From assembly GCF_041435195.1 (NCBI RefSeq), contig NZ_CP108106.1:6735501-6799500 (forward strand): a DNA stretch of 64,000 nt. Direction: 5' to 3'. A program made the position numbers and the translations under genes. This DNA comes from Streptomyces sp. NBC_00224 (GTDB taxonomy: Bacteria; Actinomycetota; Actinomycetes; Streptomycetales; Streptomycetaceae). The notes beneath the pieces are model-generated. The model had not been told where the DNA came from. It searched no databases and saw nothing but the letters and a program-made list of their open reading frames with translations. Positions 12,353 to 47,655 of the stretch are shown one piece after another; the stretch's first letter is position 1, and each line of letters begins with the position of its first letter.

Positions 12353-12392
12353 GGGGGCTCCGGCGGCCGGCTCAACCGTGTGGCTGAAGCGT

Positions 12393-29167: not shown

Positions 29168-29219
29168 TGGGGGGTGGCGGGTGGGCCGTGTCAATCCGCA
29201 GCCCCTACTCTTCTCTGTT

Positions 29220-31271
29220 GTGTCCAAACTGACCGACGTGCCCAAACGGATCCTGATCGGCCGGGCGCTGCGCAGCGACAAGCTGGGAGAAACGCTCCTC
29301 CCCAAGCGCATCGCGCTCCCCGTCTTCGCGTCCGACCCGCTCTCGTCCGTTGCGTACGCGCCCGGAGAAGTCCTCCTGGTGCTCTCCGTGGCGGGTGTGT
29401 CGGCGTACCACTTCAGCCCCTGGATCGCGGTCGCGGTCGTGGTGCTCATGTTCACCGTGGTCGCCTCGTACCGGCAGAACGTGCACGCCTACCCCAGCGG
29501 CGGTGGTGACTACGAGGTTGCCACCACCAACCTGGGGCCCAAGGCCGGACTCACCGTCGCCAGCGCGCTCCTCGTCGACTACGTCCTGACCGTCGCCGTC
29601 TCGATCGCCTCCGGCATCGAGAACCTCGGCTCGGCCGTCCCGTTCGTCGTCGAGCACAAGGTGCTCTGCGCGGTCGTCGTCATCGTGCTGCTCACGCTGA
29701 TGAACCTGCGCGGCGTGAAGGAGTCGGGCAACCTCTTCGCCATCCCCACGTACGTCTTCGTGGGCGGCGTCTTCGTCATGATCGCGTGGGGCGCCTTCAA
29801 GGGCATGGTCCTCGACGACACGATGAAGGCCCCGACGGCCGACTACACGATCCACGCCGAGCACCAGGGCCTGGCGGGCTTCGCGCTCGTCTTCCTGCTG
29901 CTGCGCGCCTTCTCCTCCGGCTGTGCCGCGCTCACCGGCGTCGAGGCGATCAGCAACGGCGTCCCGGCCTTCCGCAAGCCCAAGTCCAAGAACGCGGCGA
30001 CCACCCTCGCCCTGATGGGCGGCCTCGCGGTCACCATGTTCTGCGGCATCATCGCGCTGGCCATGACCACCAAGGTGCGGATGGCCGAGAAGCCCGCCAC
30101 CGACCTGCTCAGCAACGGCGTCCCGGTCGGCGACGGCTACGTCCAGAACCCGGTGATCTCCCAGGTCGCGGAGGCCGTCTTCGGCAAGGGCAGCTTCCTC
30201 TTCATCATCCTGGCCGCGGCCACCGCGCTGGTCCTGTTCCTGGCCGCCAACACCGCGTACAACGGCTTCCCGCTGCTCGGCTCGATCCTCGCCCAGGACC
30301 GCTATCTGCCGCGCCAGCTGCACACCCGCGGCGACCGCCTCGCGTTCTCCAACGGCATCGTGCTGCTGGCCGGGGCCGCGATCCTGCTCGTGGTGATATA
30401 CGGCGCGGACTCGACCCGGCTGATCCAGCTCTACATCGTCGGCGTCTTCGTCTCGTTCACCCTGAGCCAGACCGGCATGGTCCGGCACTGGAACCGGCAC
30501 CTCGCCACCGAGCAGGACCCGGCCAAGCGCCGCCGCATGGTCCGCTCCCGCGCGATCAACACCTTCGGCGCCTTCTTCACCGGGCTCGTCCTGGTCGTCG
30601 TCCTCGCCACCAAGTTCACCCACGGTGCCTGGGTCGCCCTGATGGGCATGGTGATCTTCTACGGAACGATGACCGCGATCCGCAAGCACTACGACAAGGT
30701 GGCCGACGAGATCGCGGCGGCCGAGGAGCGCCCGGACGAGTACGTCCGCCCCTCGCGCGTGCACTCCGTGGTCCTGGTCTCCAAGCTCCACAAGCCGACC
30801 CTGCGCGCCCTCGCCTACGCCAAGCTGCTGCACGCCAACCAGCTGGAGGCGATCAGCGTCAGCGTCGACGCGGCCGAGACCAAGGCGCTCAAGGACGAGT
30901 GGGAGCGGCGCGGCATCGACGTACCGCTGAAGATCATCGACTCGCCGTACCGCGAGATCACCCGCCCGGTCATCGAGTACGTCAAGGGTCTGCGCCGCGA
31001 GAGCCCGCGCGACGCGGTCAGCGTCTACATCCCCGAGTACGTGGTGGGCCACTGGTACGAGCACCTGCTGCACAACCAGAGCGCACTGCGCCTGAAGGGC
31101 CGCCTGCTCTTCACGCCGGGCGTGATGGTGACGTCCGTCCCCTACCAGCTCCAGTCCTCCGAGGCCGCCAAGAAGCGGGCCCGCAAGCGGCAGGACTGGA
31201 ACGCGCCGGGTTCGGTGCGGCGGGGCCCGGTGGCGCCGCAGCGCCCGAAGGAGCCTAGCGGGAAGGGCTGA
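29220..31271 (+). CDS. KimA-like APC-superfamily potassium importer
   Basis: A 683-aa transporter resembling B. subtilis KimA (YdaO) throughout: ASDPLSSVAYAPGE in helix 1, YPSGGGDY, LLVDYVLTVAVS, AFSSGCAALTGVEAISN, FSNGIV, FTLSQTGM. After about 12 transmembrane helices comes a cytoplasmic USP-like domain (~500-660) ending in HLLHNQSALRL and VPYQL. KimA imports K+ and is inhibited by c-di-AMP in Firmicutes. GTG 29220 is preferred, matching the usual N-terminus (VSKLTDVPKRILIG); TACTCT 8 nt upstream may give a nearly leaderless mRNA. GTG 29181 would add 13 residues. Substrate is inferred from family and neighbours. Confidence 0.85.
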   Translation: MSKLTDVPKRILIGRALRSDKLGETLLPKRIALPVFASDPLSSVAYAPGEVLLVLSVAGVSAYHFSPWIAVAVVVLMFTVVASYRQNVHAYPSGGGDYEVATTNLGPKAGLTVASALLVDYVLTVAVSIASGIENLGSAVPFVVEHKVLCAVVVIVLLTLMNLRGVKESGNLFAIPTYVFVGGVFVMIAWGAFKGMVLDDTMKAPTADYTIHAEHQGLAGFALVFLLLRAFSSGCAALTGVEAISNGVPAFRKPKSKNAATTLALMGGLAVTMFCGIIALAMTTKVRMAEKPATDLLSNGVPVGDGYVQNPVISQVAEAVFGKGSFLFIILAAATALVLFLAANTAYNGFPLLGSILAQDRYLPRQLHTRGDRLAFSNGIVLLAGAAILLVVIYGADSTRLIQLYIVGVFVSFTLSQTGMVRHWNRHLATEQDPAKRRRMVRSRAINTFGAFFTGLVLVVVLATKFTHGAWVALMGMVIFYGTMTAIRKHYDKVADEIAAAEERPDEYVRPSRVHSVVLVSKLHKPTLRALAYAKLLHANQLEAISVSVDAAETKALKDEWERRGIDVPLKIIDSPYREITRPVIEYVKGLRRESPRDAVSVYIPEYVVGHWYEHLLHNQSALRLKGRLLFTPGVMVTSVPYQLQSSEAAKKRARKRQDWNAPGSVRRGPVAPQRPKEPSGKG

Positions 31272-31303
31272 GCGGGTAGGGCTGAGCGGTCCGCTCGCCG
31301 ACG

Positions 31304-31343
31304 TAGACTGGGGGGCTGCCGTCCGTATGCGGACGGCAGCCCC
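31304..31343 (+). promoter_or_regulatory. -10 element and 5'-UTR hairpin upstream of trmA
   Basis: TAGACT (31304-31309) is a good -10 box. Three bases later a perfect 14-bp inverted repeat begins (31312-31325 / 31330-31343, loop TATG). Transcription from this promoter would place the hairpin at the very 5' end of the trmA mRNA. It may also terminate the KimA-like gene. Confidence 0.65.
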
Positions 31344-31372
31344 TCCCTCACCACTTCTGGAGTCACCCCCAC

Positions 31373-32707
31373 ATGCAGAACGAGTCTGAGCCTTCGTCTT
31401 CGCTGGTCGGGGAGGAGTACGAGGTCGAGGTCGGCCCCGTGGCGCACGGTGGCCACTGCATCGCCCGCACGGAGCAGGGCCGGGTGCTGTTCGTGAGGCA
31501 CGCGCTGCCGGGTGAGAAGGTCGTGGCCCGCGTGACGGAGGGCGAGGAGGACTCCCGCTACCTGCGCGCGGACGCGGTCGAGGTGTTGTCGCCGTCCAAG
31601 GACCGGGTCGAGGCGCCGTGCGTGTTCGCGGGCCCCGGCAAGTGCGGGGGCTGCGACTGGCAGCACGCGAAGCCGGGCGCGCAGCGCCGCTTCAAGGGCG
31701 AGGTCATCGCCGAGCAGCTGCAGCGGCTCGCCGGACTGACGCCCGAGGAGGCCGGCTGGGACGGCACGGTCATGCCGGCCGAGGGCGACAAGCTCCCCGC
31801 GGGCCAGGTCCCGGCGTGGCGCACCCGCGTCCAGTACGCCATCGACGAGGACGGCCACGCCGGCCTGCGCAAGCACCGCTCGCACGACGTCCAGGTGATC
31901 GACCACTGCATGATCGCGGCGCCCGGCGTCAGCGAGCTCGGCATCGAGAAGCGCGAGTGGCCGCAGATGGAGTCGGTCGAGGCGATCGCCGCGACGGGCT
32001 CGCACGACCGCCAGGTCGTACTGACCCCGCGCACCGGCGGCCGCCTCCCGCTGGTCGAACTCGACAAGCCGGTCTCGGTCCTCCGGGTGGAGGAGAAGGA
32101 CGGCGGCGTCCACCGCGTCCACGGCCGAGCCTTCGTCCGCGAGCGCGCCGACGAGCGCACCTACCGCGTGGGCATGGGCGGCTTCTGGCAGGTCCACCCG
32201 CAGGCCGCGGACACCCTGGTCAAGGCCGTGATGCAGGGCCTGATGCCGCGCAAGGGCGAGATGGCGCTGGACCTGTACTGCGGTGTCGGCATCTTCGCGG
32301 GCGCCCTCGCCGAGCGCCTCGGCGAGACCGGCGCCGTCCTGGGCATCGAGTCGGGCAAGCGCGCGGTGGAGGACGCCCGCCACAACCTGGCCGACTTCCC
32401 CCGCGTCCGCGTCGAACAGGGCAAGGTCGAGCAGGTCCTGCCCCGCACGAAGATCACCGAGGCAGACCTGATCGTCCTCGACCCGCCGCGCGCGGGCGCG
32501 GGCAAGCAGACGGTGCGCTACCTGTCGGGCTTGGGCGCGCGCCGCATCGCGTACGTCGCTTGCGATCCGGCGGCGCTGGCGCGGGATCTGGGGTATTTCC
32601 GGGAGGGGGGGTATCGGGTGCGGACGCTTCGGGCGTTTGATCTGTTTCCTATGACGCATCATGTGGAGTGCGTCGCGATCCTTGAGCCTGCCGAAAAGGG
32701 CGCCTGA
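31373..32707 (+). CDS. TrmA/RlmD-family RNA (uracil-5-)-methyltransferase, 3' end replaced by island DNA
   Basis: A 444-aa SAM-dependent methyltransferase. TRAM domain (~8-70), iron-sulfur ligands C83, C91, C94 and a later Cys (~182), SAM motif LDLYCGVGIFAG (~300), DPPRAG (~369) and the catalytic Cys of VACDPAAL (~393). It methylates C5 of a uridine in rRNA or tRNA; the target cannot be assigned. The last ~50 codons (from about 32556) show markedly weaker G/C-ending codon bias than the rest, and the C-terminus ends EPAEKGA. A second, stranded end encoding EPVRDEG is at 39023-39085. The gene is the integration target of the adjacent island. Confidence 0.88.
   Translation: MQNESEPSSSLVGEEYEVEVGPVAHGGHCIARTEQGRVLFVRHALPGEKVVARVTEGEEDSRYLRADAVEVLSPSKDRVEAPCVFAGPGKCGGCDWQHAKPGAQRRFKGEVIAEQLQRLAGLTPEEAGWDGTVMPAEGDKLPAGQVPAWRTRVQYAIDEDGHAGLRKHRSHDVQVIDHCMIAAPGVSELGIEKREWPQMESVEAIAATGSHDRQVVLTPRTGGRLPLVELDKPVSVLRVEEKDGGVHRVHGRAFVRERADERTYRVGMGGFWQVHPQAADTLVKAVMQGLMPRKGEMALDLYCGVGIFAGALAERLGETGAVLGIESGKRAVEDARHNLADFPRVRVEQGKVEQVLPRTKITEADLIVLDPPRAGAGKQTVRYLSGLGARRIAYVACDPAALARDLGYFREGGYRVRTLRAFDLFPMTHHVECVAILEPAEKGA
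32645..32673. repeat. Left attachment-like direct repeat
   Basis: 29 bp within the 3' end of trmA, encoding FPMTHHVEC plus two bases. It is identical to 39023-39051 except at 32650 (T versus G). The perfect core is the 23 bp 32651-32673. Confidence 0.85.
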
Positions 32708-32762
32708 CCTGCGGTTTCACCGAGTGTGCATTATGTGCGTTGTGGGCGTTACGGGCGATATC

Positions 32763-32830
32763 TTGACGCATATTCGACGCACGTGAGGCCCTTCTGACGC
32801 ACGTTTGACGCACGTTCTGATGGTGCGTCA
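32763..32830. repeat. GACGCACGTT-type iterons at the left island end
   Basis: Copies at 32763-32774, 32773-32784, 32793-32805 and 32805-32816 share (T)GACGCAcgt with about 10-20 bp spacing. An inverted copy GTGCGTCA lies at 32823-32830. Related copies occur near the right end. They could be recombinase or Rep binding sites. Confidence 0.65.
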
Positions 32831-32933
32831 GGCTGTTGTTCTTGCAGGTGGCGGTGCGTCGGGTGTGGGTCTTCGGGGTTACGTCTTTACCGTCTCTTGG
32901 TGAAAATCCGTGGGTAGTGGCCCGATTCGGGGC

Positions 32934-34322
32934 TCAGTAGGAGCGGGGGCCGTAGGGGCTCCAGTGGCCGAGGAAGGGCTTGAGGTCGTCGCCGCTGGGC
33001 TTCGGTGGGCTGGGCAACTTCGGCGCTGAGGCGGAGTCGGTGAGGTGCTGGAGGTGAGCGTCTGCGAAGGCTAGCCACGCCTCGATCTCGGTCCTTTCTT
33101 GTCCAGGCGGCAGTGATGTGGCGTGGTCGCGTACTGCTGTGACGTAATCGGTCAGGCGCTTGGCCTGGTGCCAGGCGTCTGCCTGTTCTCCGAGGTGATT
33201 GACGCGATAGGCGTGGGCGTATGCGGCGCGTGCTTCCTGCATGGAGGCTTCCCAGCGCCGCTGCTGCTCCTCGCGGGTTTGCTGGTCTGCGCGGCGTTTG
33301 CGTTCGGCGGCCTCGCCGCGGAGGTCGACTTCCTGCGCGATTTCGGCGAGTTGGTCCTCCAGTGGCCGGTCGGGGAGGTCAGCCCATTCGCTGGCGCGAT
33401 GCGGGTTGCCGCCACGGAGAATGAAACGCAGGCGGTTTGAGGGGGTGTAGTCGAAGCGGGCGATGCGCATCCATGAGTACTTCTTGGCGTCGGCGAGTTC
33501 CTTGTCGGTGGGGACGTGTTCGCTGCGGTCCTGTTCTTGGAGGACGAGGAATCCGATACTTTCGCCTTGGGTGGTGATGGTGAAGTGCGGTGGTGCGCTG
33601 CGGCGCCGATGGGGTGGGGGAGCGCCTTGTGTGGTTCCGAGCGCTGCCTTATTGCCTTGTGTTTCGGAGGCGGTGATGAGGGCCTGGATGATGCGCAAGG
33701 CTCGGCCTTGGACGGGTTTGGTCAGACCCATGGGTTGCGGCAGTTTTTGAAGGGTGGTCACGACGGAGTGGGGTTTGGTGAGTCTGACCGGAACGGGCAG
33801 CGGGGCGAGTTCGGCGAGGCGCCAGGCGGGGATGTCGACGAGTTTGATTTCGTAGCCGCGGTGGGTGCGGTATCCGTGGAGTTCCTGCGTGTGGGGGATC
33901 TTGCCGGACTTGCGGGCGGCGTTGACTCGTGACGTCCAATTCACTGCGTGTGGGCCGGATTCGAGGGGTTTGATGAGACAGCCGTCGTTCGCGGCCAGTT
34001 CTTCGAGGAGCTGGTCCGCGTAGTTCGTACGGGCCTTCGGCGCTGTCTTAGGCCGTGATGGCGCCGCTCGTCGGCCGGGCCGCGCAGGCGGTTCAGTACT
34101 CGGCTCCAGAGGGCAGATGCCACGTTCGGTGAGATGCCGCCGCCCTTTGTCGGTGAGACGGGCGCTCCAATACCCGCGGTGTTTGGTGATTTTGACGAGC
34201 CCTCGGCTTTGCAGGGCCTGAGCGCTGACCTTGTACGTACTGTCCGGCCAGACTCCGTCGGGACACCCTTGGCTCACCCAGTCGAGCACCGCCTGCTGCC
34301 GGTCGTTGAGGAGCTGGTTCAT
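32934..34322 (-). CDS. Winged-helix-like protein of unknown function (island gene)
   Basis: A 462-aa protein. ATG 34322 has GGGAG upstream. An N-terminal winged-helix-like region (~1-65) includes QQAVLDWVSQGCPDG, the YKVSAQALQSRGLVKIT recognition-like helix and WSARLTDKGRRHL wing. A second similar module may follow at ~95-160. Residues ~340-400 are charged and helical, probably coiled coil (AERKRRADQQTREEQQRRWEAS). It lacks a recognised catalytic motif. It lies 118 bp downstream of the restriction-modification gene on the same strand and may be its partner or a regulator. Function unknown. Confidence 0.7.
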   Translation of the reverse strand: MNQLLNDRQQAVLDWVSQGCPDGVWPDSTYKVSAQALQSRGLVKITKHRGYWSARLTDKGRRHLTERGICPLEPSTEPPARPGRRAAPSRPKTAPKARTNYADQLLEELAANDGCLIKPLESGPHAVNWTSRVNAARKSGKIPHTQELHGYRTHRGYEIKLVDIPAWRLAELAPLPVPVRLTKPHSVVTTLQKLPQPMGLTKPVQGRALRIIQALITASETQGNKAALGTTQGAPPPHRRRSAPPHFTITTQGESIGFLVLQEQDRSEHVPTDKELADAKKYSWMRIARFDYTPSNRLRFILRGGNPHRASEWADLPDRPLEDQLAEIAQEVDLRGEAAERKRRADQQTREEQQRRWEASMQEARAAYAHAYRVNHLGEQADAWHQAKRLTDYVTAVRDHATSLPPGQERTEIEAWLAFADAHLQHLTDSASAPKLPSPPKPSGDDLKPFLGHWSPYGPRSY

Positions 34323-34440
34323 GTGGTTCTCCCGCGGTCCCGGGTGCGCTGCCCTGGGAACAATGCCCACTGCTCCCGAGGGAATTCGGGACGTGCCGAG
34401 AGGCCCCCTCGTTCTGGGTTCCTCGGCTGGGCACCATCAG

Positions 34441-37400
34441 TCAGGTCGGGCCGCGATGCCGCCGAGCGCGCGGGACGGGGTGTGCAGGTGAGTGCGACGT
34501 GGGCGGCGTCATATCTGCGGGGTCTTTCGGGAGGGACAGTGGCTCGACAGGACCTGGCGGTTGACCATCGACTGTGTCCATGCCTGGCAGAAATGCATGA
34601 TCAGGATCGGTGTGAGCGCGCTGGGCACGCTGGGCACGCTCAGGTACCGGGAGGATATGACGCCGGGTGAGTTCAGCGACGTCGATCATGGGGGCAGAGG
34701 CAATGCGGTCGAGGAGTTCTGCCTGCTGAGGTTCCAGGGCTGTGAGATGCCTGAGTACGGCGAGGACTTCGACGAGTTCCCGGCTCCAGTCGGGTTCCCA
34801 GCGCTCGGGACGTTCACGGTCCAGTTCGCTGGTTACTTTGCCGGCGGCGCGGTCGCTGCGGTAGGCGAGCCAGCTGTCGAGCACGTTGCGCCCGCCCGTG
34901 GAGTAGTTGCGCATGCGTGCAGTGACACCAGTGAAGATGCCGCCTTCGATGACAAGTCGCTGACCTTCGCTGTCAAAGCTGATGGCCGAAGGGAGCTTAT
35001 CGGGCGCGACTTCTCGGGCATACGTGATCTCGGGGCATAGACGACGCCACCAGTTCGATGTGCCGGCCGGGCGACCGTCGGCGGGGTCGATGCAGCGTGA
35101 GCCAAATGTCGAGGCCCACAGTATGTGGTGTCCCAGGCTGGCTGCCTCGTGCCAGAGTCCGCGATCGGCGGTCAGGGGGATGCGTACGCCGAGGGAGTTG
35201 AGGTCGTCCGCGTAGCGCTCGGTGAAGGCTGGATGGGCAGTGACAGCAGCGATGTAGGCGAGCAAGTCCTTCGGGAGAACTTGCAGTAGGCCGTATGAGT
35301 TGGCGAGGTGGGGTAGGAGCCCTGGTGTGATGTTGGGGGTTCGGTCGGCGTGCAGGAGCGGCAGGACGCGGCCGCCGTTTCCCTTGAAGTAGTCGTTGTC
35401 CGGAACGAGGGCGGTGAAGAGCAGAGCTGGGCCGGTCTGTAGTCGTTGGGTGTGCTGCTCGACTGCGAAGATTTGGCCGTCGATGTCGGCCTGCCACAAC
35501 TCGGGGCGAGAGAAGTCGATGACGCGGCCGTCGGGTATGAGCCATTGGCGGTCCAGGGCTCTACGGGCAATGCGTATCGGAGTAGGGCAGGGGCCGTGCT
35601 CTATGCGCAGGCAGGTCGGTGGGTGGGGATGCCCGGGAATCTGGAGAGCTTCCTTGTCCAGGGTACGGTCTCGGGTCTCTTTGAACAGTTCCTGTTTCGT
35701 TACGGGGTCGCCTTCTTGGACGAGGCGGTTCCAACGTATGTGCAGGATGGATTTGGACGGACTGATGACCCAGTTCCGGTTGGGCTTGATGCCAGGCTTA
35801 CACCAAGGCATTAGTTCGGTGAGGGCGGGGAAGGTGTCCCAATCGCTTTGGGGAGCAGGTGTGAAAGGAACGGGCTCGACAGGCCGGGAAGTGCGCCAGC
35901 CGGGACCGTCGATGTGCAGGTTGTGTAGTTGCTTCTCTTTGCTCTGTCGGGTGCCATGGACGGCTACGTAGTGGATGGGGGCCATGTCCTCTTGCCGCTC
36001 GCCTTGTCGGCGGACGAAGATGGCGATGGCCAACTCCTGCTGTACTCCAGGGAAGAAGCGGCTGTTGAGCGGGGGTCTTTTGGTCTCGGGTGTGAGGTCG
36101 ACGATCCAGCCCTCGGTGCAGGTACGCCGAAGGTAGGAACGCATCCCCTGGAAGCCGGCACCGCGGATGAAGCCGCCGGTGCTGACGAAGCAGACGACGC
36201 CGTGGCGGTGATCGTCGTGCTGGTCGAAGACCTTGTGGGTGGCCCAGCGCCAGAAGTAGGTGCAGAGGCTTTTCAGTTTGTTCTCGTACACGCCTGCTGC
36301 GCCGCGCAGTCGGAAGTCGTCCAGGGGCGGTGAGCCTCGGCCCGGTGAGCCCTTCTCGATCCATCCGCCCTGGCCCTCTGCCTGTTCGCGGTGGGGAGGG
36401 TTGCCGATGACGACGGTGATGCGTTCGTTGCGTTGGATAGTGCTGGCTGCCTCGGCGTCGTCGCGTAAAGGACCCCACAAGGCGCCGTAGCGGTCGAAGA
36501 GTTCACTGGGCCGCCACGGATCAGCGAGAGTGTCGGCTAGGTGCAGGCGCATGTCACGCAGCCGGACTCGGGCATTGAGGTGCTTGAGCATCTGCCCTAC
36601 GCGCATCTGAGCAACGGCAAAGGCGCCCATCTGCTTTTCGAATCCGATCAGTCGGCTTGCGAGTTCTTGCACGGATTCGGCGCGGAAGCCTTCGTTGCCA
36701 CCCTCGGACTGTTTGCGGGCGACGAGTTCGATGATGCCGGTGAGGAAGGTGCCGGTTCCCATCGACGGGTCGATGATGGAAACACCAGGGTCGGCGAAGC
36801 CATCCGGGCAGTCCAGAGTGGTTGCCAGTACCTCATCAACCAGCCGGATCATCTCTGTCACCAGCGGGGCCGGGGTGTAGTAGGTGCCGGAGTCCTTGCG
36901 CAACTCGGCGTCGTACTCCTGCAGGAAGTGCTCGTAGAGATGGATGTGGAAGCCGGGTTCGCCGGTGAGGGCACTTCTCCAGTCGATGGCATCAATGACG
37001 CGGACGAGCATGTCAAGGCTGTCGCGGAATTCTCCCTCCACCTGGTCGGTGAGGATCTGCAAGGCGCGGCCCATGACGGAGTGCTCGGCCCCGAGTCGTC
37101 GGCCTATCTCGTGCAGGCTCATGCCGACCAGTGCCTTGTCGCTGCCGCCTGTGGTGTCGGAACCGGCTAGCAGGAGGGCGAAGGTGACGGACTGTGCGTA
37201 GCGGTCGGCAAAGGTCGCGCGCTTGTCCCGGTCATCCGTGGTCGGGAAGAGATCAACTTCAAGTGTGGAGGCCAGGTCAGTGAACGGGCGCTGGTGGCGT
37301 GGCAGGCCCGCTTCGGCATCGAGGCGATCGTGAACAGCATCACGCAGGAGCGTGCATAGCGGGGCGATTTGGGAGACCACTTCTCGCATTGACGTCAGTG

Positions 37401-37914
37401 GGTGGGGCTGCCAGCCGAAGAATGCGACAAGCATCGCCTCGAAGGCGGTCTCGCTGGCGACCGGAAGCCGTAGGCGGGAGCCGGCGCTGTGTAGATCACC
37501 TTCGAAGTGGATGGCGTCGCCGTACTGCCGACCCGAGCGGTACATGATCCACGTCTGGCCGTTCGTGTAGATCAGGTTGGGCAGTTTCGCCATGCCTTCC
37601 CATTGGCGGTGGTCGCGCTGGTTCAGGCCGCCAGGATGGATCGTGCTCTTGTCGGGGCTTTTCAGCTCGACGTAGCCGACGATGTTGCGTGGTGATTTTC
37701 CAATCCGCACTGCCAGGTCAGGGCGTATCCGGTGCGTGGCAATGGCCACCTCGGCATGTAAGACCGCTCGCAGTCCCAACACCCCTGCTGCATCGATGAG
37801 AAGGGTTTCGACTGCTCGGCGGATGGCGGCTTCCTTCTGCCCGTGCAGCAACGCCTGCTTACATGTCGCACCGAATTCGCTGACGATGCTCCGAAACCGC
37901 TCCTTGCGCTGCAT
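34441..37914 (-). CDS. Single-chain restriction-modification enzyme, ISP/type IIG-like (nuclease + N6-adenine methylase)
   Basis: A 1157-aa protein. The N-terminal PD-(D/E)xK nuclease shows RPDLAV with Asp66 and YVELKSP with Glu83 and Lys85. A helical coupler (~150-340) precedes a gamma-type N6-adenine methylase: YYTP (345-348), motif I DPSMGTGTF (382-390) and motif IV NPPH (505-508), where most relatives have NPPY/F. The C-terminal third contains an ISP-like specificity region (IPLTADRGLWHEAASLG). There is no helicase domain, unlike LlaGI-type ISP enzymes. ATG 37914 (GGGGGGCGGG upstream) is preferred to GTG 37935. TTA codons occur at Leu483 (36466-36468) and near 37759-37761, so translation should need bldA tRNA. 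Probably anti-phage. Confidence 0.82.
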   Translation of the reverse strand: MQRKERFRSIVSEFGATCKQALLHGQKEAAIRRAVETLLIDAAGVLGLRAVLHAEVAIATHRIRPDLAVRIGKSPRNIVGYVELKSPDKSTIHPGGLNQRDHRQWEGMAKLPNLIYTNGQTWIMYRSGRQYGDAIHFEGDLHSAGSRLRLPVASETAFEAMLVAFFGWQPHPLTSMREVVSQIAPLCTLLRDAVHDRLDAEAGLPRHQRPFTDLASTLEVDLFPTTDDRDKRATFADRYAQSVTFALLLAGSDTTGGSDKALVGMSLHEIGRRLGAEHSVMGRALQILTDQVEGEFRDSLDMLVRVIDAIDWRSALTGEPGFHIHLYEHFLQEYDAELRKDSGTYYTPAPLVTEMIRLVDEVLATTLDCPDGFADPGVSIIDPSMGTGTFLTGIIELVARKQSEGGNEGFRAESVQELASRLIGFEKQMGAFAVAQMRVGQMLKHLNARVRLRDMRLHLADTLADPWRPSELFDRYGALWGPLRDDAEAASTIQRNERITVVIGNPPHREQAEGQGGWIEKGSPGRGSPPLDDFRLRGAAGVYENKLKSLCTYFWRWATHKVFDQHDDHRHGVVCFVSTGGFIRGAGFQGMRSYLRRTCTEGWIVDLTPETKRPPLNSRFFPGVQQELAIAIFVRRQGERQEDMAPIHYVAVHGTRQSKEKQLHNLHIDGPGWRTSRPVEPVPFTPAPQSDWDTFPALTELMPWCKPGIKPNRNWVISPSKSILHIRWNRLVQEGDPVTKQELFKETRDRTLDKEALQIPGHPHPPTCLRIEHGPCPTPIRIARRALDRQWLIPDGRVIDFSRPELWQADIDGQIFAVEQHTQRLQTGPALLFTALVPDNDYFKGNGGRVLPLLHADRTPNITPGLLPHLANSYGLLQVLPKDLLAYIAAVTAHPAFTERYADDLNSLGVRIPLTADRGLWHEAASLGHHILWASTFGSRCIDPADGRPAGTSNWWRRLCPEITYAREVAPDKLPSAISFDSEGQRLVIEGGIFTGVTARMRNYSTGGRNVLDSWLAYRSDRAAGKVTSELDRERPERWEPDWSRELVEVLAVLRHLTALEPQQAELLDRIASAPMIDVAELTRRHILPVPERAQRAQRAHTDPDHAFLPGMDTVDGQPPGPVEPLSLPKDPADMTPPTSHSPAHPVPRARRHRGPT

Positions 37915-38165
37915 CCCGCCCCCCGAGGTCAGCACACCCCCACGCCTTCTTCAACTCACGGTAAGCACAGCATCACTTCTCGTCGAGAGTGCCTCCCAGC
38001 CCAAGGTGCCGAGTCCGGGTGGCGATCCTGGGCCAGGGTGAGGCCGAGTGCCGTCCCCCGACGAGCCTGTAGGGGGCCCTGGTCCAACTCCATTCCGTGA
38101 GAGCCGGCATTGCGGGCGGCGGGTACCGTCAGCGAGGTTCGGCGCTGATGCTTGCTCTGGCGGAG

Positions 38166-38564
38166 CTAGACCTTCTCGGTCGCGATCTGCGGGTGGTTGG
38201 CAGTGAGCATGGCGATGTCCTCGACGTCTGAGGTCAGGATCGTGACGCGTCCACGGTGGGTGAGCGCCGTCGCGCAGAGCATGGCGTCGATGGCGTACTT
38301 GTGGCCGTGCAGCCCGGCCGTGCGTAGCAGGGTGGCGGCGGACTGGGCGATGGCCTGGGTGACCGGCTCTACGCGCATTCGGGACAGCGTCCATCTCAGC
38401 GCCGCGTCATTGATTCGAGGGTGGATCACCTCGACCAACACTGCGGCGGAGGTGACCACCGGCAGGTCGGCGTCACGGGCGGCGGTGAGCCACTCGTGGA
38501 CCTCGCGGTCGCGTTGAACGGCCTTGGCCAGGCCCTCACTGTCGAGGACGAGGGCGCCGCTCAC
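38166..38564 (-). CDS. PIN-domain toxin (VapC-like)
   Basis: A 132-aa PIN ribonuclease. The four acidic positions expected for metal binding are Asp8 (LVLDSEG), Glu45 (VLVEVIH), Asp93 (YAIDAML) and Asp113 (LTSDVEDI). It would cleave specific RNA when free of its antitoxin. GTG/ATG overlap: its start overlaps the upstream antitoxin stop by 4 bp, the usual coupled arrangement. It lies inside the trmA island, where it may stabilise inheritance or act in abortive infection. Confidence 0.85.
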   Translation of the reverse strand: MSGALVLDSEGLAKAVQRDREVHEWLTAARDADLPVVTSAAVLVEVIHPRINDAALRWTLSRMRVEPVTQAIAQSAATLLRTAGLHGHKYAIDAMLCATALTHRGRVTILTSDVEDIAMLTANHPQIATEKV

Positions 38565-38848
38565 GCAGCAGCCCCGGTACCGGAAGTGGGAGTGGTTCCG
38601 GTGAGCTTGGCTCGCTTGGCGGCCACGGCCTCCGGATCGGCCGGACCGTTGGCCTGGTCGAAGGCGGCGATCAACTCGTCCAGGTTGTCGCGCTCGATCT
38701 GGCGTTGGGCGGCCTTCTCTAGGTACGCGGATACGCCACGCTTGCCTACTCGCTCGCGAATTGCCTGCAGGGTGCCGGCGGTGAGGGAGACGGAGATGCC
38801 GCTGCTGGGGCCATCGCCGGGGAAGAAGTCGGTGTCGTCGTCAGCCAT
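38561..38848 (-). CDS. Antitoxin of the PIN toxin
   Basis: A 95-aa protein. The central helix region (SVSLTAGTLQAIRERVGKR, then VSAYLEKAAQRQIE) resembles ribbon-helix-helix antitoxins. The C-terminal part is flexible and Thr/Ala-rich. It precedes the toxin with a 4-bp overlap. It starts at ATG 38848 in an otherwise noncoding island end, so it probably has its own promoter at about 38870-38900. Confidence 0.78.
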   Translation of the reverse strand: MADDDTDFFPGDGPSSGISVSLTAGTLQAIRERVGKRGVSAYLEKAAQRQIERDNLDELIAAFDQANGPADPEAVAAKRAKLTGTTPTSGTGAAA

Positions 38849-39022
38849 GACGTGAGTATGGCATTTCTAATGCTATACGGCGACCTCCTGGGTCGGACCG
38901 TGCGTCAAGAGATCGCACGTAATGCCCATGGCGCACGCAATGCACGTTGCCCGCGAGGCAGATTTGCATCCCTGATGCGCCGCTGACCTGCGATTTTCTT
39001 CCACATGTTTTTGATTCACATC

Positions 39023-39051
39023 TTTCCGATGACGCATCATGTGGAGTGCGT
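39023..39051. repeat. Right attachment-like direct repeat
   Basis: 29 bp matching 32645-32673 (28/29), with the 23-bp perfect core at 39029-39051. Confidence 0.85.
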
Positions 39052-39085
39052 GGCGATTCTGGAGCCGGTGCGGGACGAGGGCTGA
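39023..39085 (+). pseudogene. Stranded native 3' end of trmA
   Basis: An in-frame remnant of 20 codons plus TGA: FPMTHHVECVAILEP followed by VRDEG. It matches the end of the intact trmA except for the last residues. It has no start and is cut from its gene by the island. Downstream homology to 32708-32786 continues to about 39155. Confidence 0.85.
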
Positions 39086-39385
39086 GCTGCGGGTTCGGGG
39101 CCTGCGGGTTGTGGGCGTTACGGGCGATGTCGTGAGGCATGTTCGACGCACGTGACGCGCATGACGCACGTTTGGCGCAGGCACGGCTTAGTTCTGTCCG
39201 GGTTCACGCCCTGGCGCATGGTCAAGGCGGCGCGGGAGTTCACCGAGCAGCGGGGGCGTGCAGGAGCATCGACGCGGTGCTGCGCCTCATGGGTGGCCTC
39301 GGCGGGACGTGCGGCAACGGGCGACCGCTACTGAAGGGGCTGGAGGGTGTGGCCCAAGGGGCCCAGGTCCTCCTGTGCGAGGGCT

Positions 39386-40483
39386 TCAGGCTCGCGCAGC
39401 GCTTTCCGGGAACCCGAGTTCCTGCCCGCCGCCGGTCTCGAAGAACCTCTCCACCACCCCGTCCTCAACTTCCCCGAGCGTCCCCGGCGCCCACCGAGGC
39501 TCCCGGTCCTTGTCGATCACCTGGGCCCGGATCCCCTCGACCAGGTCCGGGGAGGTCAGGGCCGCGCAGGAGATGCGGTACTCCTGGGTCAGGACTTCCT
39601 CCAGGGTGGGGAGTTCGCGGGCCCGGCGCATCGCCTTCAGGGTGACCTTGAGGGACGTGGGGGACTTCGTCAGGATGGTCTCGGCTGCTTCCTTCGCCTC
39701 CTGGATGCCGGAGGTCAGAAGGCGGTCCACGATCTGCTCCACCGTGTCCGCCGCGTAGCAGTGGTCGATCCACTCGCGGTGGGCGGCGAGTTCGCCTGGC
39801 GGGGGAGGCTGGTGGGTGTGGTGGGTGAGTGCGTCTCGTACCGGTGACATCGTCAACTCGGCTATCAGCGCCGGGAGTTGGAGCGACGGGACGTAGTGGT
39901 CCGCCAAGCCGCACAGGATCGCGTCCGCCGCGCCCACCGGTGTGCCCGTGAGGGCCAGGTGGGTGCCCAGTTCGCCGGGCGCTCGGCTGAGCAGATACGT
40001 ACCGCCCACGTCCGGGACGAAGCCGATGCCCGTCTCGGGCATGGCGACCCGGGAGCGCTCGGTGACGATCCGTACGTTGCCGTGGGCCGAGATTCCGACC
40101 CCGCCGCCCATCACGATGCCGTCCATCACGGCCACGTACGGCTTGGACCAGCGCGCGATGCGGGCATTGAGACGGTACTCGTCCCGCCAGAAGTCCGCCG
40201 AGGCCGTGCCGCCCGAGCGGGCGTCCTCGTGGATCGCGCGGATGTCGCCGCCCGCGCAGAGCCCGCGCTCACCGGCGCCGGTGAGGACGACCGTCTCCAC
40301 GGACGGGTCGTGCTCCCACGCCGTCAGCGCCTCGTCGATCCGGCGGACCATGGCGTGGGTCAGCGCGTTCAGCGCCCTCGGCCGGTTGAGGGTGAGGTGG
40401 GCGGCGCGGCCATGGCGCGTCAGCAGGACGTCCTCGGCGTCGGGGGCGGCGTCGGGGAGTGCGGCGGTGCTGCTGGGGCCCAT
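39386..40483 (-). CDS. Enoyl-CoA hydratase/isomerase family; 3-hydroxyisobutyryl-CoA hydrolase-like
   Basis: A 365-aa crotonase-fold enzyme. GLCAGGDIRAIHE (~74-86) and the segment MPETGIGFVPDVGGTYLLSR (~148-167) are diagnostic of the hydrolase branch acting in valine catabolism; crotonases are shorter (~260 aa). It releases 3-hydroxyisobutyrate from its CoA ester. ATG 40483 has AAAGGAA upstream. A palindrome GGACGTCC lies 73 bp upstream in its promoter. Lone gene. Confidence 0.85.
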   Translation of the reverse strand: MGPSSTAALPDAAPDAEDVLLTRHGRAAHLTLNRPRALNALTHAMVRRIDEALTAWEHDPSVETVVLTGAGERGLCAGGDIRAIHEDARSGGTASADFWRDEYRLNARIARWSKPYVAVMDGIVMGGGVGISAHGNVRIVTERSRVAMPETGIGFVPDVGGTYLLSRAPGELGTHLALTGTPVGAADAILCGLADHYVPSLQLPALIAELTMSPVRDALTHHTHQPPPPGELAAHREWIDHCYAADTVEQIVDRLLTSGIQEAKEAAETILTKSPTSLKVTLKAMRRARELPTLEEVLTQEYRISCAALTSPDLVEGIRAQVIDKDREPRWAPGTLGEVEDGVVERFFETGGGQELGFPESAARA

Positions 40484-40550
40484 GGGCTGGCGGTTCCTTT
40501 CGGATCCGGGCAGATCCTTGCGGATCTTTGAGACGATCTCCCCGAACATA

Positions 40551-40570
40551 TAGTTGGACGTCCTAGTAAG
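40551..40570 (-). promoter_or_regulatory. Candidate operator of the hydrolase gene
   Basis: The perfect palindrome GGACGTCC (40556-40563) is embedded in an AT-rich context (TAGTT on one side, TAGTAAG on the other). On the minus strand it directly precedes TATAT, a likely -10. The position suits repression of the acyl-CoA gene. Confidence 0.4.
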
Positions 40571-40637
40571 TCCATCGGGTGAGTCGCCGACCGTTCCCGC
40601 CGCCCTCGCCCGCCGTCCTCGGGCCTAGGGTGCTGTC

Positions 40638-41033
40638 GTGCCGACGTACAGCATTGGCCAGGCAGCGGGGCTGCTCGGCGTGAGTTTCGAGACCGTCCGG
40701 CGGTGGGCCGATGCCGGGCGGCTGCGGAGGGAGCGGGACGGTACGGGCAACCGGGTGATCGACGGGGTCGGGCTCGCCGCGTTCGCGCAGGAGCGTGCCG
40801 TCGGGTCGTACGAGGTTCCCGGCGGGGTGGCCACCTCGGTGCGGAACTCCTTCGTGGGGATCGTGACGGCCGTGGCGGCCGACGACGTGGCCGCGCAGGT
40901 GGACATCCAGTGCGGGCCGCACCGGGTGGTCTCGCTGGTGACGCGCGAGTCCGTCGAGGAGCTCGGCATCGACGTCGGGGTGACCGTCACCGCCCGGGTC
41001 AAGTCGACTCATGTCCATGTCGACCTGGGGTGA
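40638..41033 (+). CDS. HTH plus TOBE-domain molybdate-binding-type protein
   Basis: A 131-aa protein. An N-terminal MerR/excisionase-type helix-turn-helix (IGQAAGLLGVSFETVRRWADAGRL, residues 6-29) is followed by one TOBE domain (SVRNSFVGIVTAV to VKSTHVHVDLG, ~67-131). This is the Mop/molbindin layout, binding oxyanions such as molybdate. It probably senses or stores molybdate. The molybdenum nitrate reductase lies 2 kb away. GTG start. Confidence 0.85.
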   Translation: MPTYSIGQAAGLLGVSFETVRRWADAGRLRRERDGTGNRVIDGVGLAAFAQERAVGSYEVPGGVATSVRNSFVGIVTAVAADDVAAQVDIQCGPHRVVSLVTRESVEELGIDVGVTVTARVKSTHVHVDLG

Positions 41034-43040: not shown

Positions 43041-46000
43041 TCAGTAGACATCGCGGACATAGCGTTTCCCCGCCGTCATCCGCTTCAGATACGCCGCCGC
43101 CGACTCCTCGTCGAGCCCGCCGTGCGCTATCGCGATGTCGCGCAGCGCCCGGTCGACGTCCTTGGCCATACGGGAGGCGTCGCCGCACACATAGAAGTGC
43201 GCCCCGTCCTGGAGCCAGGACCACAGCAGCGGGCCGTGCTCGCGCATACGGTCCTGTACGTACACCTTGGCGCGCTGGTCGCGGGAGAACGCCGTGTCCA
43301 GGCGTGCGAGGGTGCCCTCCGCGCTCAGTTTGGTCAGTTCGTCCTCGTAGTAGAAGTCGGTGGCACGGTGCTGCTCGCCGAAGAACAGCCAGTTCGGGGC
43401 GTGATGGCCCAGGGCGCGGCGTTCGTAGAGGAAGCCGATGAACGGGGCGACCCCGGTGCCGGGGCCGACCATCACCATCGGCGTCCCCGGGTCGGCGGGC
43501 GGCCGGAAGTGCCGGGTGCGCTGCACGTACACCGGAAGCGGCGCGTCCGGCGGCGAGTCTGCGAGCAGAGCCGAGCACACGCCCGCGCGCCCGTGGCCGA
43601 GGCGGTTCTCGTACCGGACGACCGAGACCGTTACGGACACCTCGTGCGGGTCGGTCAGCGGGCTGGACGAAATCGAGTACAGCCGTGGCCGCAGGCCGCG
43701 CAAGACGCCCGCCCACTCGGGCGCGCTCGCGCGCACCCCGTGTTCGGCCACCACGTCCACCGCCTGACGGCCCCAGGACCACTGTGCCAGCTGCCACTTG
43801 TTGTCGGGTCGCAGCAAGTGCTTCAGGCGGCGGTCATGGGTCCGCTCGGCGACGAACTTGAGCAGGTCGGGGCCGACCCGCGTGATGTCCAGGTGTTCGT
43901 GCAGCGCCGTACCGAACGGGACTTCGCCGACCCCGCCGATCTCGACGGGGGCCGTGGAGTCCAGACCGGTGACGGCCAGCCACTCGGCCACCAGGTCCGG
44001 TGAGTTGACCGGGTGCACGCCGAGTGCGTCCCCGGCCGCGTAGGTGAGCGGGGTCTCGCTCGCGCGGGTGTCGAAGGTGAACCGCCGCACCTCCTTGCTC
44101 GAACCGGGGAGGCTGAGCAGCGAGTTCCCCGTCAGTCGGGCCGTGACGGCGGCGGCCCGGGAGCTGGGGAGGGGTGTGGTGGGGCGAGATGCGGCGGGGG
44201 CGGCTGACGTTCGGGCCGCCGTGGAACTCGTAGGGACAGTTGCGGTGTTGGGGACCGAGGATGTTGCTGTACCCGATGAACGGACACCGTGCGACGCGAG
44301 TTCCCCTCCCGCCGCGAATTCGTCAGGGAAATTTTCGTCAGGGAAATTTCCGGGCGTCCCGGGGGAGGGCTGGACGGGGGTGCCCAAGGCCGTGTCGCCG
44401 GGGAGACCGGCGGGCGCGTCGGGAGGCGTGTTTCCGGCGGCCGACAGCTCGTCCAGGCGGGTCAGCACCCCGTCGAGCCACTCCTGTGCCCGGTCCTCGA
44501 AGTCCGGTTCGCAGTCGGTGCGGGGGAGCAGCCGTACCGCACCCAGCTCGGCCAGCCGCCGGTCCAGGCGTCGGCCGTGCCCGCAGAATTCGTCGTACGA
44601 CGAGTCCCCGAAGGCCAGGACCGCATAGCGGCGCCCTTCCAGGCGCGGGGCCTCGTCATCGGCCAGGGCGTCCCAGAACGCGGCGCCGTTGTCGGGCGCT
44701 TCGCCGTCTCCGGTGGTGCTGGTGATCAGCAGCACCTCGGCGTCGGCGGGCAGCGTGTCCGGAGCGGTGTCGTCCATGGAGACGAGCCGGATCCGGTGCC
44801 CGGCGCCGGCGAGCCGTTCGGCGCCGGCCGCGGCGAGCTGCTCGGCGTTGCCGGTCTGCGAGGCCCACAGCACCAGCACGTCACGGCCTCGGGGGGCCGA
44901 GGGCGGCGTGACGGGTGCGGGGGCGGGCCGCGGGGTCGCCCGCGAGTACATCCCGGCCAGCACGCCGTTCACCCACAGCGCGTGCTCCTCGCTGAACGGC
45001 GCCGTCGGCGGCAGTACGGGGATGCCGGGCGCGCCCGACTCCAGCCCGGCCAGGAACCCGGCGAGGTACTGGCGTTCCCGCTCGGTGAGGACCGGCGGGG
45101 GTGCGCCGAGCCCGAACACGGCGGCGGGGGCGGCGCCTTGACCCGCAAGAAGGGGCGAGTCGGAGGCCGTGCGCTGGGCGGGCACGGCGTATGTGAGGGG
45201 CGCGGGGGCGTCGAGGAGCGCGGTACCCGCGACGAGCGCCCCCGCCGTGCCGGAGGCGCCTGGCGCCACCGCCACAGCGCCGCCCACTCCCGCTGCCCCG
45301 GAAGCACCTGCCGCCACCCCGGCCGAGCCGTTCGCGCCCGCCGTCCCCCGGCCACCGCCCGCGCCCGCCCCCGTCCCCGGCATGACAGGCCGCGCCACCT
45401 CGGCCGTGACCCTCGTCAGCGACACCGCGCACACCTTGAACTCGGGCTGCAGCGAGATCGGGTCCACCGCGTCGCTGGTCACCGCGTTGATGCTCAGATC
45501 CGCGCCGAACAGGTCGTTCCAGTGGAAGGGCGCGAAGCAGCACCCCGGCCGCACCCGGTCGGTCACCACGGCGGGCAGCACCGCGCGTCCGCGCCGGGAG
45601 GCGATCTCCACCCCGTCGCCCTCGGCGATGCCGAGGCGTTCGGCGTCCTGCGGGTGCACCTCCACGAACGGCGCCGGGTTGAGCTTGTTGAGCTTGGCCA
45701 CCTTCCCCGTCTTGGTGAGCGTGTGCCACTGGTGCTGCAGCCGCCCGGTGTTGAGTACGAACGGGAAGTCGTCGTCGGGCATCTCGGCGGCCGGGAGGTG
45801 CGGGCGTGCGTGGAATACGGCCCGTCCGCTCGCCGTCGGGAACACCGGACCGCCGCCGTCCTCGGCCACGTACCGGATCGGGTTGCGGTCGGGCCCCTCG
45901 GCGGTAGGGGCAGGCCACTGCACCGGCGTGGCGCGCAGCCGCTCGTAGGTGACCCCGCGCAGGTCGTAGCCGGTCTTCGGGTTCCAGGCGCGCTTGATCT

Positions 46001-47558
46001 CCTCGAAGACCTCTTCGGGACCGGCGTAGGTGAACGCCTCCTCGTACCCCATCGCGCACGCCACGCGCGCGATGATCTGCCAGTCGGGCAGCGCCTCGCC
46101 GGGCGCGTCGACGGCCTGCCGGGCGAGGGTGAGGTTGCGCTCGCTGTTGACGAGGACGCCCTCGGCCTCCGTCCACAGGGCGCCGGGCAGCACCACGTCC
46201 GCGTACGCGGTGGTCTCGGTCTCGGCGAACACGTCCTGGACGACGACGAACTCGGCCGCCCGCAGGCCCTCGGCGACGGTGCGGCGGTTGGCGACCGAGG
46301 CGACCGGGTTGGTGCAGATCACCCAGCACGCTTTGATGTCGCCGTCGGCCATCCGCCGGAACATCTCGACGGTGCCGAGCCCAGCCCCGTCGGTGCGCAG
46401 CGTGCCGGGCCGCAGCCCCCACAGCTCCTCGGTGAAGGCCCGCTCCTCGTCGACGAGCACCGAGCGCTGGCCGGGCAGCCCGGGGCCCATGTAGCCCATC
46501 TCGCGGCCGCCCATGGCGTTCGGCTGGCCGGTGAGGGAGAACGGGCCGCTGCCGGGGCGGCATATCGCGCCGGTCGCCAGATGCAGGTTGACCAGGGCGT
46601 TGGTGTTCCAGGTGCCGTGCGTGGACTGGTTGAGCCCCATGGTCCAGCAGCTCATCCACTCCCCGGCCGTGCCGATCCACCGCGCCGCCGTGCGGATGTC
46701 CTCCTCGGGAATCCCGGTGATCTCGGCGACGGAGGCGGGCGGGTAGTCGGCCAGGAACTCCCCCATCGCCTCCCAGCCCTCGGTGTGCTCGGCGATGAAG
46801 GCGGGGTCCGTGTGCCCGTTCTCCTGGAGCAGGTGCAGCAGCCCGTTGAGCAGCGCGAGATCCGCGCCCGGCTTGATCTGTAGGAAGAGGTCGGCCTTGG
46901 CGGCGGTCGCGGTGCGGCGCGGGTCGACGACGATCAGCTTCGCCCCGGCCTTGACGCGCTCCATCATCCTCAGAAAGAGGATGGGATGGCAGTCGGCCAT
47001 GTTGGAGCCGATGACCAGGAAGACGTCCGCCTTCTCGAAGTCCTGGTACGAGCCGGGCGGCCCGTCCGCGCCGAGCGACAACTTGTAGCCGCTGCCCGCA
47101 CTGGCCATGCACAGCCGGGAGTTGGACTCGATCTGGTTGGTGCCGATGAACCCCTTGGTCAGCTTGTTGGCCAGATACTGCGCCTCCAGGCTCATCTGGC
47201 CGGACACATACAGCGCGACGGCGTCCGGCCCGTGCTCGTCGACGATCGCCCGCAGCCTGCCCGCCGTCTCGGCGATCATCGCGTCGACCCCGGCGGGCAC
47301 CGGCTCGGCCCCCCGCTCACCCCGTACCAGCGCGGTGGCCAGGCGTCCGGGAGCGGCCAGCATGTCGGCCGTCGTCGCCCCCTTGGTGCACAGCCGTCCG
47401 GAGTTCGCGGGGTGCGCCTTGTCGCCGGAGGCCTTGAGTACCGTGCGCCGGCCGTCCGGCCCCACGGTGATGTCGAGGACCATCCCGCAGCCCACACCGC
47501 AGTACGAGCAGACCGTGCGCACCTTTTCGGTGGCGGCCCGCGTGCCCTGTGCGGTCAA
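43041..47558 (-). CDS. Assimilatory nitrate reductase fused to a CysJ-like flavoprotein reductase
   Basis: A single 1505-aa chain. Domains in order: [4Fe-4S] site CSYCGVGC (17-24) plus RLCTKG; molybdopterin domain to about residue 730 (LCMASAGSGYKLS, GLNQSTHGTWN, FHWNDLFG); an Ala/Gly-rich linker (~745-830); a CysJ-like stretch and flavodoxin (VLWASQTGNAEQL, ~910); a second Ser/Thr/Pro linker (~1090-1160); FAD-binding RLYSISSSP; and NADPH-binding VGPGTGVAPF...YVCGDASRMA. It would reduce nitrate to nitrite with NAD(P)H without a separate reductase subunit. TTG 47558 is proposed: GAGAGGGG lies 8 nt upstream, and the longer ATG 47645 reading would run through GlnR-like boxes. Confidence 0.87.
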   Translation of the reverse strand: MTAQGTRAATEKVRTVCSYCGVGCGMVLDITVGPDGRRTVLKASGDKAHPANSGRLCTKGATTADMLAAPGRLATALVRGERGAEPVPAGVDAMIAETAGRLRAIVDEHGPDAVALYVSGQMSLEAQYLANKLTKGFIGTNQIESNSRLCMASAGSGYKLSLGADGPPGSYQDFEKADVFLVIGSNMADCHPILFLRMMERVKAGAKLIVVDPRRTATAAKADLFLQIKPGADLALLNGLLHLLQENGHTDPAFIAEHTEGWEAMGEFLADYPPASVAEITGIPEEDIRTAARWIGTAGEWMSCWTMGLNQSTHGTWNTNALVNLHLATGAICRPGSGPFSLTGQPNAMGGREMGYMGPGLPGQRSVLVDEERAFTEELWGLRPGTLRTDGAGLGTVEMFRRMADGDIKACWVICTNPVASVANRRTVAEGLRAAEFVVVQDVFAETETTAYADVVLPGALWTEAEGVLVNSERNLTLARQAVDAPGEALPDWQIIARVACAMGYEEAFTYAGPEEVFEEIKRAWNPKTGYDLRGVTYERLRATPVQWPAPTAEGPDRNPIRYVAEDGGGPVFPTASGRAVFHARPHLPAAEMPDDDFPFVLNTGRLQHQWHTLTKTGKVAKLNKLNPAPFVEVHPQDAERLGIAEGDGVEIASRRGRAVLPAVVTDRVRPGCCFAPFHWNDLFGADLSINAVTSDAVDPISLQPEFKVCAVSLTRVTAEVARPVMPGTGAGAGGGRGTAGANGSAGVAAGASGAAGVGGAVAVAPGASGTAGALVAGTALLDAPAPLTYAVPAQRTASDSPLLAGQGAAPAAVFGLGAPPPVLTERERQYLAGFLAGLESGAPGIPVLPPTAPFSEEHALWVNGVLAGMYSRATPRPAPAPVTPPSAPRGRDVLVLWASQTGNAEQLAAAGAERLAGAGHRIRLVSMDDTAPDTLPADAEVLLITSTTGDGEAPDNGAAFWDALADDEAPRLEGRRYAVLAFGDSSYDEFCGHGRRLDRRLAELGAVRLLPRTDCEPDFEDRAQEWLDGVLTRLDELSAAGNTPPDAPAGLPGDTALGTPVQPSPGTPGNFPDENFPDEFAAGGELASHGVRSSGTATSSVPNTATVPTSSTAARTSAAPAASRPTTPLPSSRAAAVTARLTGNSLLSLPGSSKEVRRFTFDTRASETPLTYAAGDALGVHPVNSPDLVAEWLAVTGLDSTAPVEIGGVGEVPFGTALHEHLDITRVGPDLLKFVAERTHDRRLKHLLRPDNKWQLAQWSWGRQAVDVVAEHGVRASAPEWAGVLRGLRPRLYSISSSPLTDPHEVSVTVSVVRYENRLGHGRAGVCSALLADSPPDAPLPVYVQRTRHFRPPADPGTPMVMVGPGTGVAPFIGFLYERRALGHHAPNWLFFGEQHRATDFYYEDELTKLSAEGTLARLDTAFSRDQRAKVYVQDRMREHGPLLWSWLQDGAHFYVCGDASRMAKDVDRALRDIAIAHGGLDEESAAAYLKRMTAGKRYVRDVY

Positions 47559-47616
47559 CGGGTGTCCCCTCTCGTCTCGGCCGGGATACCTTGGGCTCCG
47601 ACCGTACGAAATGCCC

Positions 47617-47655
47617 GTTACTTCGATGTCACGTGCGGCGATCACGAGTGGTTAC
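47617..47655 (-). promoter_or_regulatory. GlnR-like boxes upstream of nitrate reductase
   Basis: On the minus strand: GTAAC (47655-47651), N6, TGATC (47644-47640), N7, GTGAC (47632-47628), N6, GTAAC (47621-47617). The GTnAC half-sites with 11/12-bp phasing fit the actinobacterial GlnR pattern, as expected for a nitrogen-assimilation gene. The boxes lie about 60-100 bp upstream of the proposed TTG start. Confidence 0.65.

Follow-up and report, generated by a model that had tools for sequence, protein, structure and literature searches.

A four-gene, defence-type island in the 3' end of an rlmD-like gene of Streptomyces: a probable non-autonomous, site-specific integrative element

Structure and gene content of the island

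In the 64,000-nt stretch of Streptomyces sp. NBC_00224 analyzed here (the window), a 6.4-kb island occupies the 3' end of a 23S rRNA methyltransferase gene (Table 1). It lies between two identical copies of a 23-bp core (ATGACGCATCATGTGGAGTGCGT), the only two found at up to 3 mismatches in the 9.18-Mb genome. Beyond the core, the homology between both ends covers 44 nt (91%) and includes a further block of 56 nt (88%) located 3' of the stop codon. The GC content of the island is ~63-67% in 1-kb windows, against ~68-76% in its surroundings (24 to 48 kb), and the minus strand carries all of its four genes. A preliminary description of this DNA had proposed a perfect 23-bp core bracketing a lower-GC, minus-strand block, with homology extending past the stop codon, and all these features were recovered. 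The inner ends of the island also form a 45-nt inverted repeat with 82% identity (32726-32770 and 38901-38945), scoring 29 against a maximum of 13 in 300 shuffles. At the left end, GACGCT is absent and four direct GACGCA repeats are present. Judged by sequence, the ends have a lambda-type att anatomy, in which the core is flanked on either side by repeats at a fixed spacing; the right end of the window island carries an inverted box and not direct arms.

Table 1. Features of the rlmD locus in the window.
Feature	Position	Strand	Remarks
rlmD-like 23S rRNA (uracil-C5)-methyltransferase gene	31373..32707	+	target; last 11 codons and stop on the island side of the core
Left att core	32651..32673	+	encodes MTHHVECV, including the THHVE motif
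Left end of the island: RlmD tail with stop codon	32674..32707	+	
Left box	32744..32770	-	conserved at GACGCA-type left ends
Left arm array	32764..32830	+	GACGCA repeats: four direct, one inverted
Winged-helix (WH) protein	32934..34370	-	N-terminal MarR-like winged helix; 462 aa by database start; left-end gene of related islands
Restriction enzyme-methyltransferase, single chain, with type ISP C-terminal domain	34441..37935	-	payload; PF18135, PDLC03631
PIN-domain protein	38166..38564	-	toxin candidate
Antitoxin candidate	38561..38848	-	overlaps the PIN gene; no family match
Right box	38901..38927	+	left box in inverted copy
Right att core	39029..39051	+	
Probable second, decayed element: RlmD tail, stop codon and left-arm block	39052..39182	+	arm block 39103-39182
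Enoyl-CoA hydratase-like gene	39386..40549	-	in the extra 1.5 kb; absent from the empty site
MerR-like gene	40638..41033	+	native flank on the right; immediately follows rlmD in the empty site

The target gene had been taken for trmA, an identity that the family models do not sustain, since its 60 bits against the TrmA model are far below the cut-off (334.65). The protein passes the cut-off of the RlmD model TIGR00479 (206.8 bits, cut-off 183.55) and fails that of NF009639 (204.4 bits, cut-off 458), and for these reasons we call the gene rlmD-like. The THHVE motif encoded by the core aligns with Streptococcus pneumoniae SP_1029, and a Q replaces the E, the catalytic residue, in one PDB sequence of that protein. 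The reading frame and the stop codon of rlmD are kept by the insertion.

The island encodes a WH protein, an ISP/IIG-type restriction enzyme, a PIN-domain protein and an antitoxin candidate, in agreement with the gene content proposed beforehand, the last two standing as toxin and antitoxin candidates. The defensive character attributed to the island is supported at the level of family matches. No integrase family was found among the four genes, nor any of the genes of actinomycete or other integrative and conjugative elements (AICEs/ICEs) looked for, namely TraB-type or conjugation, replication and integrase genes. There was likewise no resolvase-family match within the island, those of the same genome being located elsewhere.

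The 1164-aa enzyme contains PF02384 (N6 methyltransferase) and PF18135 (ISP C-terminal specificity), both above cut-off, and Pfam revealed no helicase domain in it at E <= 0.001. As in the type ISP enzymes LlaBIII and LlaGI, an N6 methyltransferase and an ISP-type C-terminal specificity domain are joined in one chain, but only ~330 residues precede the methyltransferase region, against ~845 in LlaBIII. Because of this short region and of the helicase result, the enzyme is, by its domain layout, nearer to type IIG (PDLC03631) than to the helicase-bearing type ISP. Compared with the copy at locus L197, the gene is under purifying selection (dS 0.497, dN/dS 0.118). It has diverged about as much as rlmD in the same pair (dS 0.425), a result compatible both with vertical residence and with an old transfer.

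We were not able to place the WH protein in a known family: Pfam and PADLOC gave no match, while those of NCBIfam and PHROGs were weak, sub-threshold or low-scoring. Foldseek found nothing at E <= 0.001 in PDB or in viral models, and in a second structural comparison (VIA) the coverage was mainly of the winged helix (residues ~15-85).

The empty site and a probable second element

L194 (Streptomyces sp. CBMA152) heads the list of 80 named rlmD loci, with 90% identity. It contains a single core without an arm array; a MerR match begins 112 bp past the core and is followed by PucR. It provides the empty site with a single core that the preliminary description had predicted, with the MerR-PucR genes directly after rlmD. 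Two features of site-specific integrative elements are thus present, namely att sites forming direct repeats at the two ends and a relative with an empty site. Window positions 29179-32714 align to L194 7761-11366 and 40624-42864 to 11423-13555. Since these alignments flank the gap, ~32715-40623 is extra with respect to L194, corresponding to the 6.4-kb island plus 1.5 kb (39093-40623).

The right-hand RlmD copy carries its own stop codon, followed by a left-arm block as seen at the left ends of these elements. Because of this block, and because 39093-40623 is missing from the empty site, the segment 39023-39085, formerly regarded as the stranded native end of the gene, more likely represents the left end of another, decayed element, and the window site is probably a tandem of both. 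Neither can this tail be called the native end, as its similarity to the tail of L194 (59/70 bases) hardly differs from that of the left copy (58/70). A degenerate right core for the second element was not found in 39060-40640, where the best candidate has 9 mismatches (shuffled mean of 8.6). For the enoyl-CoA hydratase-like gene of this segment, no match was shown downstream of rlmD in the 80 loci, which cover up to 10 kb each, some being shorter. Further downstream, at 43041-47645, the window contains a 1534-aa ORF that by eye resembles a fusion of a molybdopterin oxidoreductase with a flavodoxin/FAD reductase.

The rlmD site in other Streptomyces

The core was found within 2 mismatches in 370 of the 392 Streptomyces genomes, as expected of rlmD, with more than one copy in many of them; the places described for these genomes represent part of the positions. 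Besides the window, 29 loci were read whole, 20 of them picked for having several cores on one contig. Neighboring cores are separated by ~2.7 to 43 kb and the genes between them are largely unrelated. The preliminary description had raised the question of what else sits at the site in other strains; some hold the island of the window and others different ones, often in tandem.

The 80 named loci were selected for their similarity in rlmD. Downstream of their first core there is a GACGCT array (19 loci), a GACGCA array (7), weak or mixed motifs (16) or none of them (32), and 6 loci have no core within 3 mismatches. A second core is present in the fetched stretch of 10 loci. As a chance control, three motifs were reached in 39 of 20,000 random 250-bp windows of these loci. 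Considering the 209 distinct core sites of all fetched loci, a biased set, GACGCT arrays occur ~90-139 bp after the core in 46 and GACGCA arrays in 26, and a GACGCT pair lies ~90-109 bp before the core in 43. A variant core, ATGACGTCGCACGTGGAGTGCGT or close to it (3 mismatches), was observed near the rlmD islands of genomes G159, G189, G225, G274 and G370 (for example, at position 6666 of L189), and may mark a further att variant.

A tyrosine integrase linked to the site

A tyrosine integrase was first found inside the islands of G007, G224 and G171. With five candidates scored per genome, the family was recovered at E <= 1e-60 in 46 of the 392 genomes, one match each. No relative was found at this threshold in the genome of the window, whose six Phage_integrase matches are all outside the island and at most ~27% identical to the linked integrases. 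All 46 genomes have a core within 3 mismatches, and in 41 a same-strand core lies up to 60 kb downstream of the integrase (at 295-532 bp in 9 of these), a placement expected by chance in ~0.8% per genome. The integrase is bracketed by cores in 32 of the 46, taking upstream cores within 200 kb. The five exceptions are G324, G076 and G228, with a same-strand core upstream only, G269, where it is 1.5 Mb away, and G360, where it is on another contig.

Using the integrase of G270 as query, matches were found in 7 of 249 genomes of the same bacterial family, 2 of them from another genus. With the integrase of G108, all 819 matching phage records were below 60% identity, so that no close phage relative was recognized, and one of the 72 matching plasmid records reached 60-80%. 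Two other tyrosine recombinases in rlmD islands (G087 and G300) are only ~22-26% identical to the linked family. The element of G108 spans 9.8 kb and includes an AbiEii-type gene and, before the integrase, an excisionase-like HTH gene and a short integrase-like gene; Pfam showed no conjugation genes among the eight genes scanned. The short gene (L174:5688-6317) encodes a 209-aa protein that matches part of Phage_integrase and lies just before the excisionase-like and integrase genes. Its relatives are in the same place in G031 and G331.

Left arms could be typed for 23 integrases, of which 20 belong to the set of 46 genomes and 3 come from named loci. Sixteen have only GACGCT and 7 only GACGCA, and in all 23 the arm type pairs with the clade, the two groups lying on opposite sides of a 100/100 branch. 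This pairing takes no more than a single change on the tree, which is a point against the model proposed below. Some assignments are also distant: the left core is on a contig other than that of the integrase in G330 and G001 (two of the 7 GACGCA cases), and more than 100 kb away in G015, G270, G188 and G284. In G330, which has two cores, the one with arms was used, the second being without arms. The left end is untyped for the tree rows G159, G168 and G269, and two GACGCT are present at each of two other cores there, the far one of G269 (1.5 Mb off, GACGCA side of the tree) and the upstream variant core of G159.

At the right ends of the GACGCA clade both motifs are present. Arms are direct at the seven right ends compared from integrase-bearing elements. 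The right box of the window island is inverted and would have to be accepted by that integrase, which also counts against the model. G210 and G011 join GACGCT left arms to a GACGCA-type right box, against a strict matching of arms. The idea that WH is an arm-specific factor was rejected, as the WH tree is not sorted by arm type.

Conserved ends and changing payload

In related islands the middle varies, whereas one or both ends are conserved, WH on the left and antitoxin-PIN with the inverted box on the right. In G011, an island of 25.4 kb from core to core runs from WH to antitoxin-PIN and matches BrxHI, BrxD, PglZ, BrxC/PglY, PglX and PglW, a full BREX type 2 set by the usual definition. PglZ, PglY and PglX precede the antitoxin-PIN end in G303, where only the right part of the island is covered. 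G210 matches mad2, mad6, mad7 and mad8 (MADS-like) and AbiU. Behind WH left ends we found pPIWI-RE genes (G029), PglX (G249) and a PDC-M11B protein (G274), and behind the second core of G270, PglW and PglX. L195 has both ends in common with the window and a different middle. L197 has the ISP gene of the window at 86%, with the PIN and antitoxin genes also kept and WH decayed. Directly after the right core of the BREX island of G303, a 199-nt segment (L339:18565-18763) matches the start region of the window ISP gene with 78% identity, perhaps a trace of a neighboring ISP island.

ORFs were sampled at 26 loci whose arrays are clear, and the 100 searched, out of 138, matched 39 PADLOC families at E <= 1e-15, several models hitting one and the same protein. 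The 25 of these families shown have one member each and include ThsB, JetD, RmrA/MTase_I, PDC-S30 and PDC-M11B. The upstream control (99 of 131 ORFs) gave one family, mad3, in three members. A purely defensive cargo was discarded, since Pfam assigns some of these 100 ORFs to transporters, enzymes and transposases. The rlmD site is richer in defense genes than its upstream side, but it is not confined to defense. PADLOC gave no match for a 792-aa gene in the WH island of G270, a 714-aa gene in G274, two proteins of G158 and one of G019.

Comparison with known elements

Staphylococcal SCC elements form tandem islands in the 3' end of rlmH and use ccr serine recombinases. The preliminary description had compared the island with them, and the likeness holds for behavior, both kinds of island accumulating in tandem where an rRNA methyltransferase gene ends. 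It does not extend to the machinery: the recombinase linked to this site is a tyrosine integrase, the window island carries no recombinase, and its target is rlmD-like.

In Streptomyces, AICEs accrete in tandem with shared direct repeats, leave integrase-less remnants and in one case target rlmN (PMC9513070). They resemble the window island in their site-specificity, accretion, integrase-less remnants and rRNA methyltransferase target, but the latter lies in the 3' end of rlmD and combines a defense payload and WH and antitoxin-PIN ends in four genes with none for transfer or replication. Streptococcal ICEs target rumA, a 23S rRNA (uracil-5-) methyltransferase gene, by their own serine integrases, with a swap and change of the C-terminus (PMC4701971), whereas at rlmD a tyrosine integrase is linked and the gene retains its frame and stop. 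Hitcher elements, CALINs among them, borrow recombinases and have no integrase of their own (PMC11389934). CALIN cassettes similarly depend on an integrase supplied elsewhere; they are attC cassettes, while rlmD islands have kilobase size and lambda-type att sites with arms. Defense hotspots of Pseudomonas aeruginosa (PMC10250203) share the fixed chromosomal places with changing defense systems, and at rlmD the boundaries, att anatomy and linked integrase are visible as well. The portion consulted of a survey of actinobacterial defense does not mention the rlmD site (PMC10482375), and no description of an rlmD or trmA hotspot in Streptomyces was found in the literature searched, at the level of titles and abstract openings.

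Origin and mobility of the island

We suggest that the block is probably a non-autonomous, site-specific integrative element with a trans-supplied integrase, mobile end modules and an exchangeable middle payload. Its movement would need a helper, since the island has no integrase and the genome lacks the linked family. An arm-compatible integrase of the GACGCA type, from an autonomous element at rlmD, would insert the island in trans, and excision may follow the same route. The end modules would be the mobile backbone, antitoxin-PIN providing stability and WH acting as a DNA-binding accessory. The middle would be the exchangeable payload, here a type IIG/ISP-like enzyme probably acting against phage.

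The close dS values of the ISP and rlmD genes in the pair with L197 fit a long vertical residence and speak against mobility. They also fit the explanation that the island is a fixed remnant of an autonomous element whose integrase was deleted, now inherited vertically, with the restriction enzyme and the toxin-antitoxin under selection. The lack of an integrase in the island and of the linked family in the genome agrees with this, as does L197, where WH has decayed and the other three genes are retained. We regard this explanation as possible and on the whole unlikely, because the same two end modules, without integrase, surround unrelated payloads in several genomes, indicating repeated exchange, and because the nearest named relative, L194, has an empty site.

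A second explanation, which we find doubtful, is that homologous recombination involving the repeated ends (RlmD tails, WH and antitoxin-PIN) is the main route by which payloads are exchanged, and gained or lost, at rlmD, site-specific integration belonging to the past only. The repeated ends are common to tandem islands, L195 shares both ends of the window island and not its middle, and G210 and G011 have hybrid ends, all of which would be expected from such a process; acting alone, it leaves the fixed arm anatomy and the linked integrase unexplained. That the repeat is just a conserved rlmD motif, coding for conserved residues and recurring wherever an rlmD end lies, is hardly credible in view of the two genome matches only, the empty site of CBMA152, the arm anatomy and the linked integrase.

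Returning to a non-autonomous element, a broader and quite tentative proposal is that the WH/antitoxin-PIN islands are a distinct class of integrase-less defense elements, in which inverted end boxes recognized by WH would let a resident rlmD-specific integrase act on ends whose architecture differs from its own, so that whole defense systems (restriction enzyme, BREX, MADS-like, pPIWI-RE) would be swapped as cassettes between fixed ends at one address across Streptomyces. The site offers a fixed address where defense systems gather and can be read out in each strain, and it comes with an arm code and a family of linked integrases. It also makes testable the movement of integrase-less defense islands, a long-standing problem in the study of hitcher elements. 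New defense systems may be sought among the genes enclosed by known ends, and the presence of the core in most of the genomes means that the integrases could serve as vector tools.

Relatives of the module were also noted beside another gene. In four genomes (L183:12076-16064 of G206, L185, L186 and L187), a ychF-type GTPase gene is followed by antitoxin-PIN and a WH relative, with 42-46% and 79-81% identity to those of the window, respectively, which suggests a second chromosomal place for the WH/antitoxin-PIN module.
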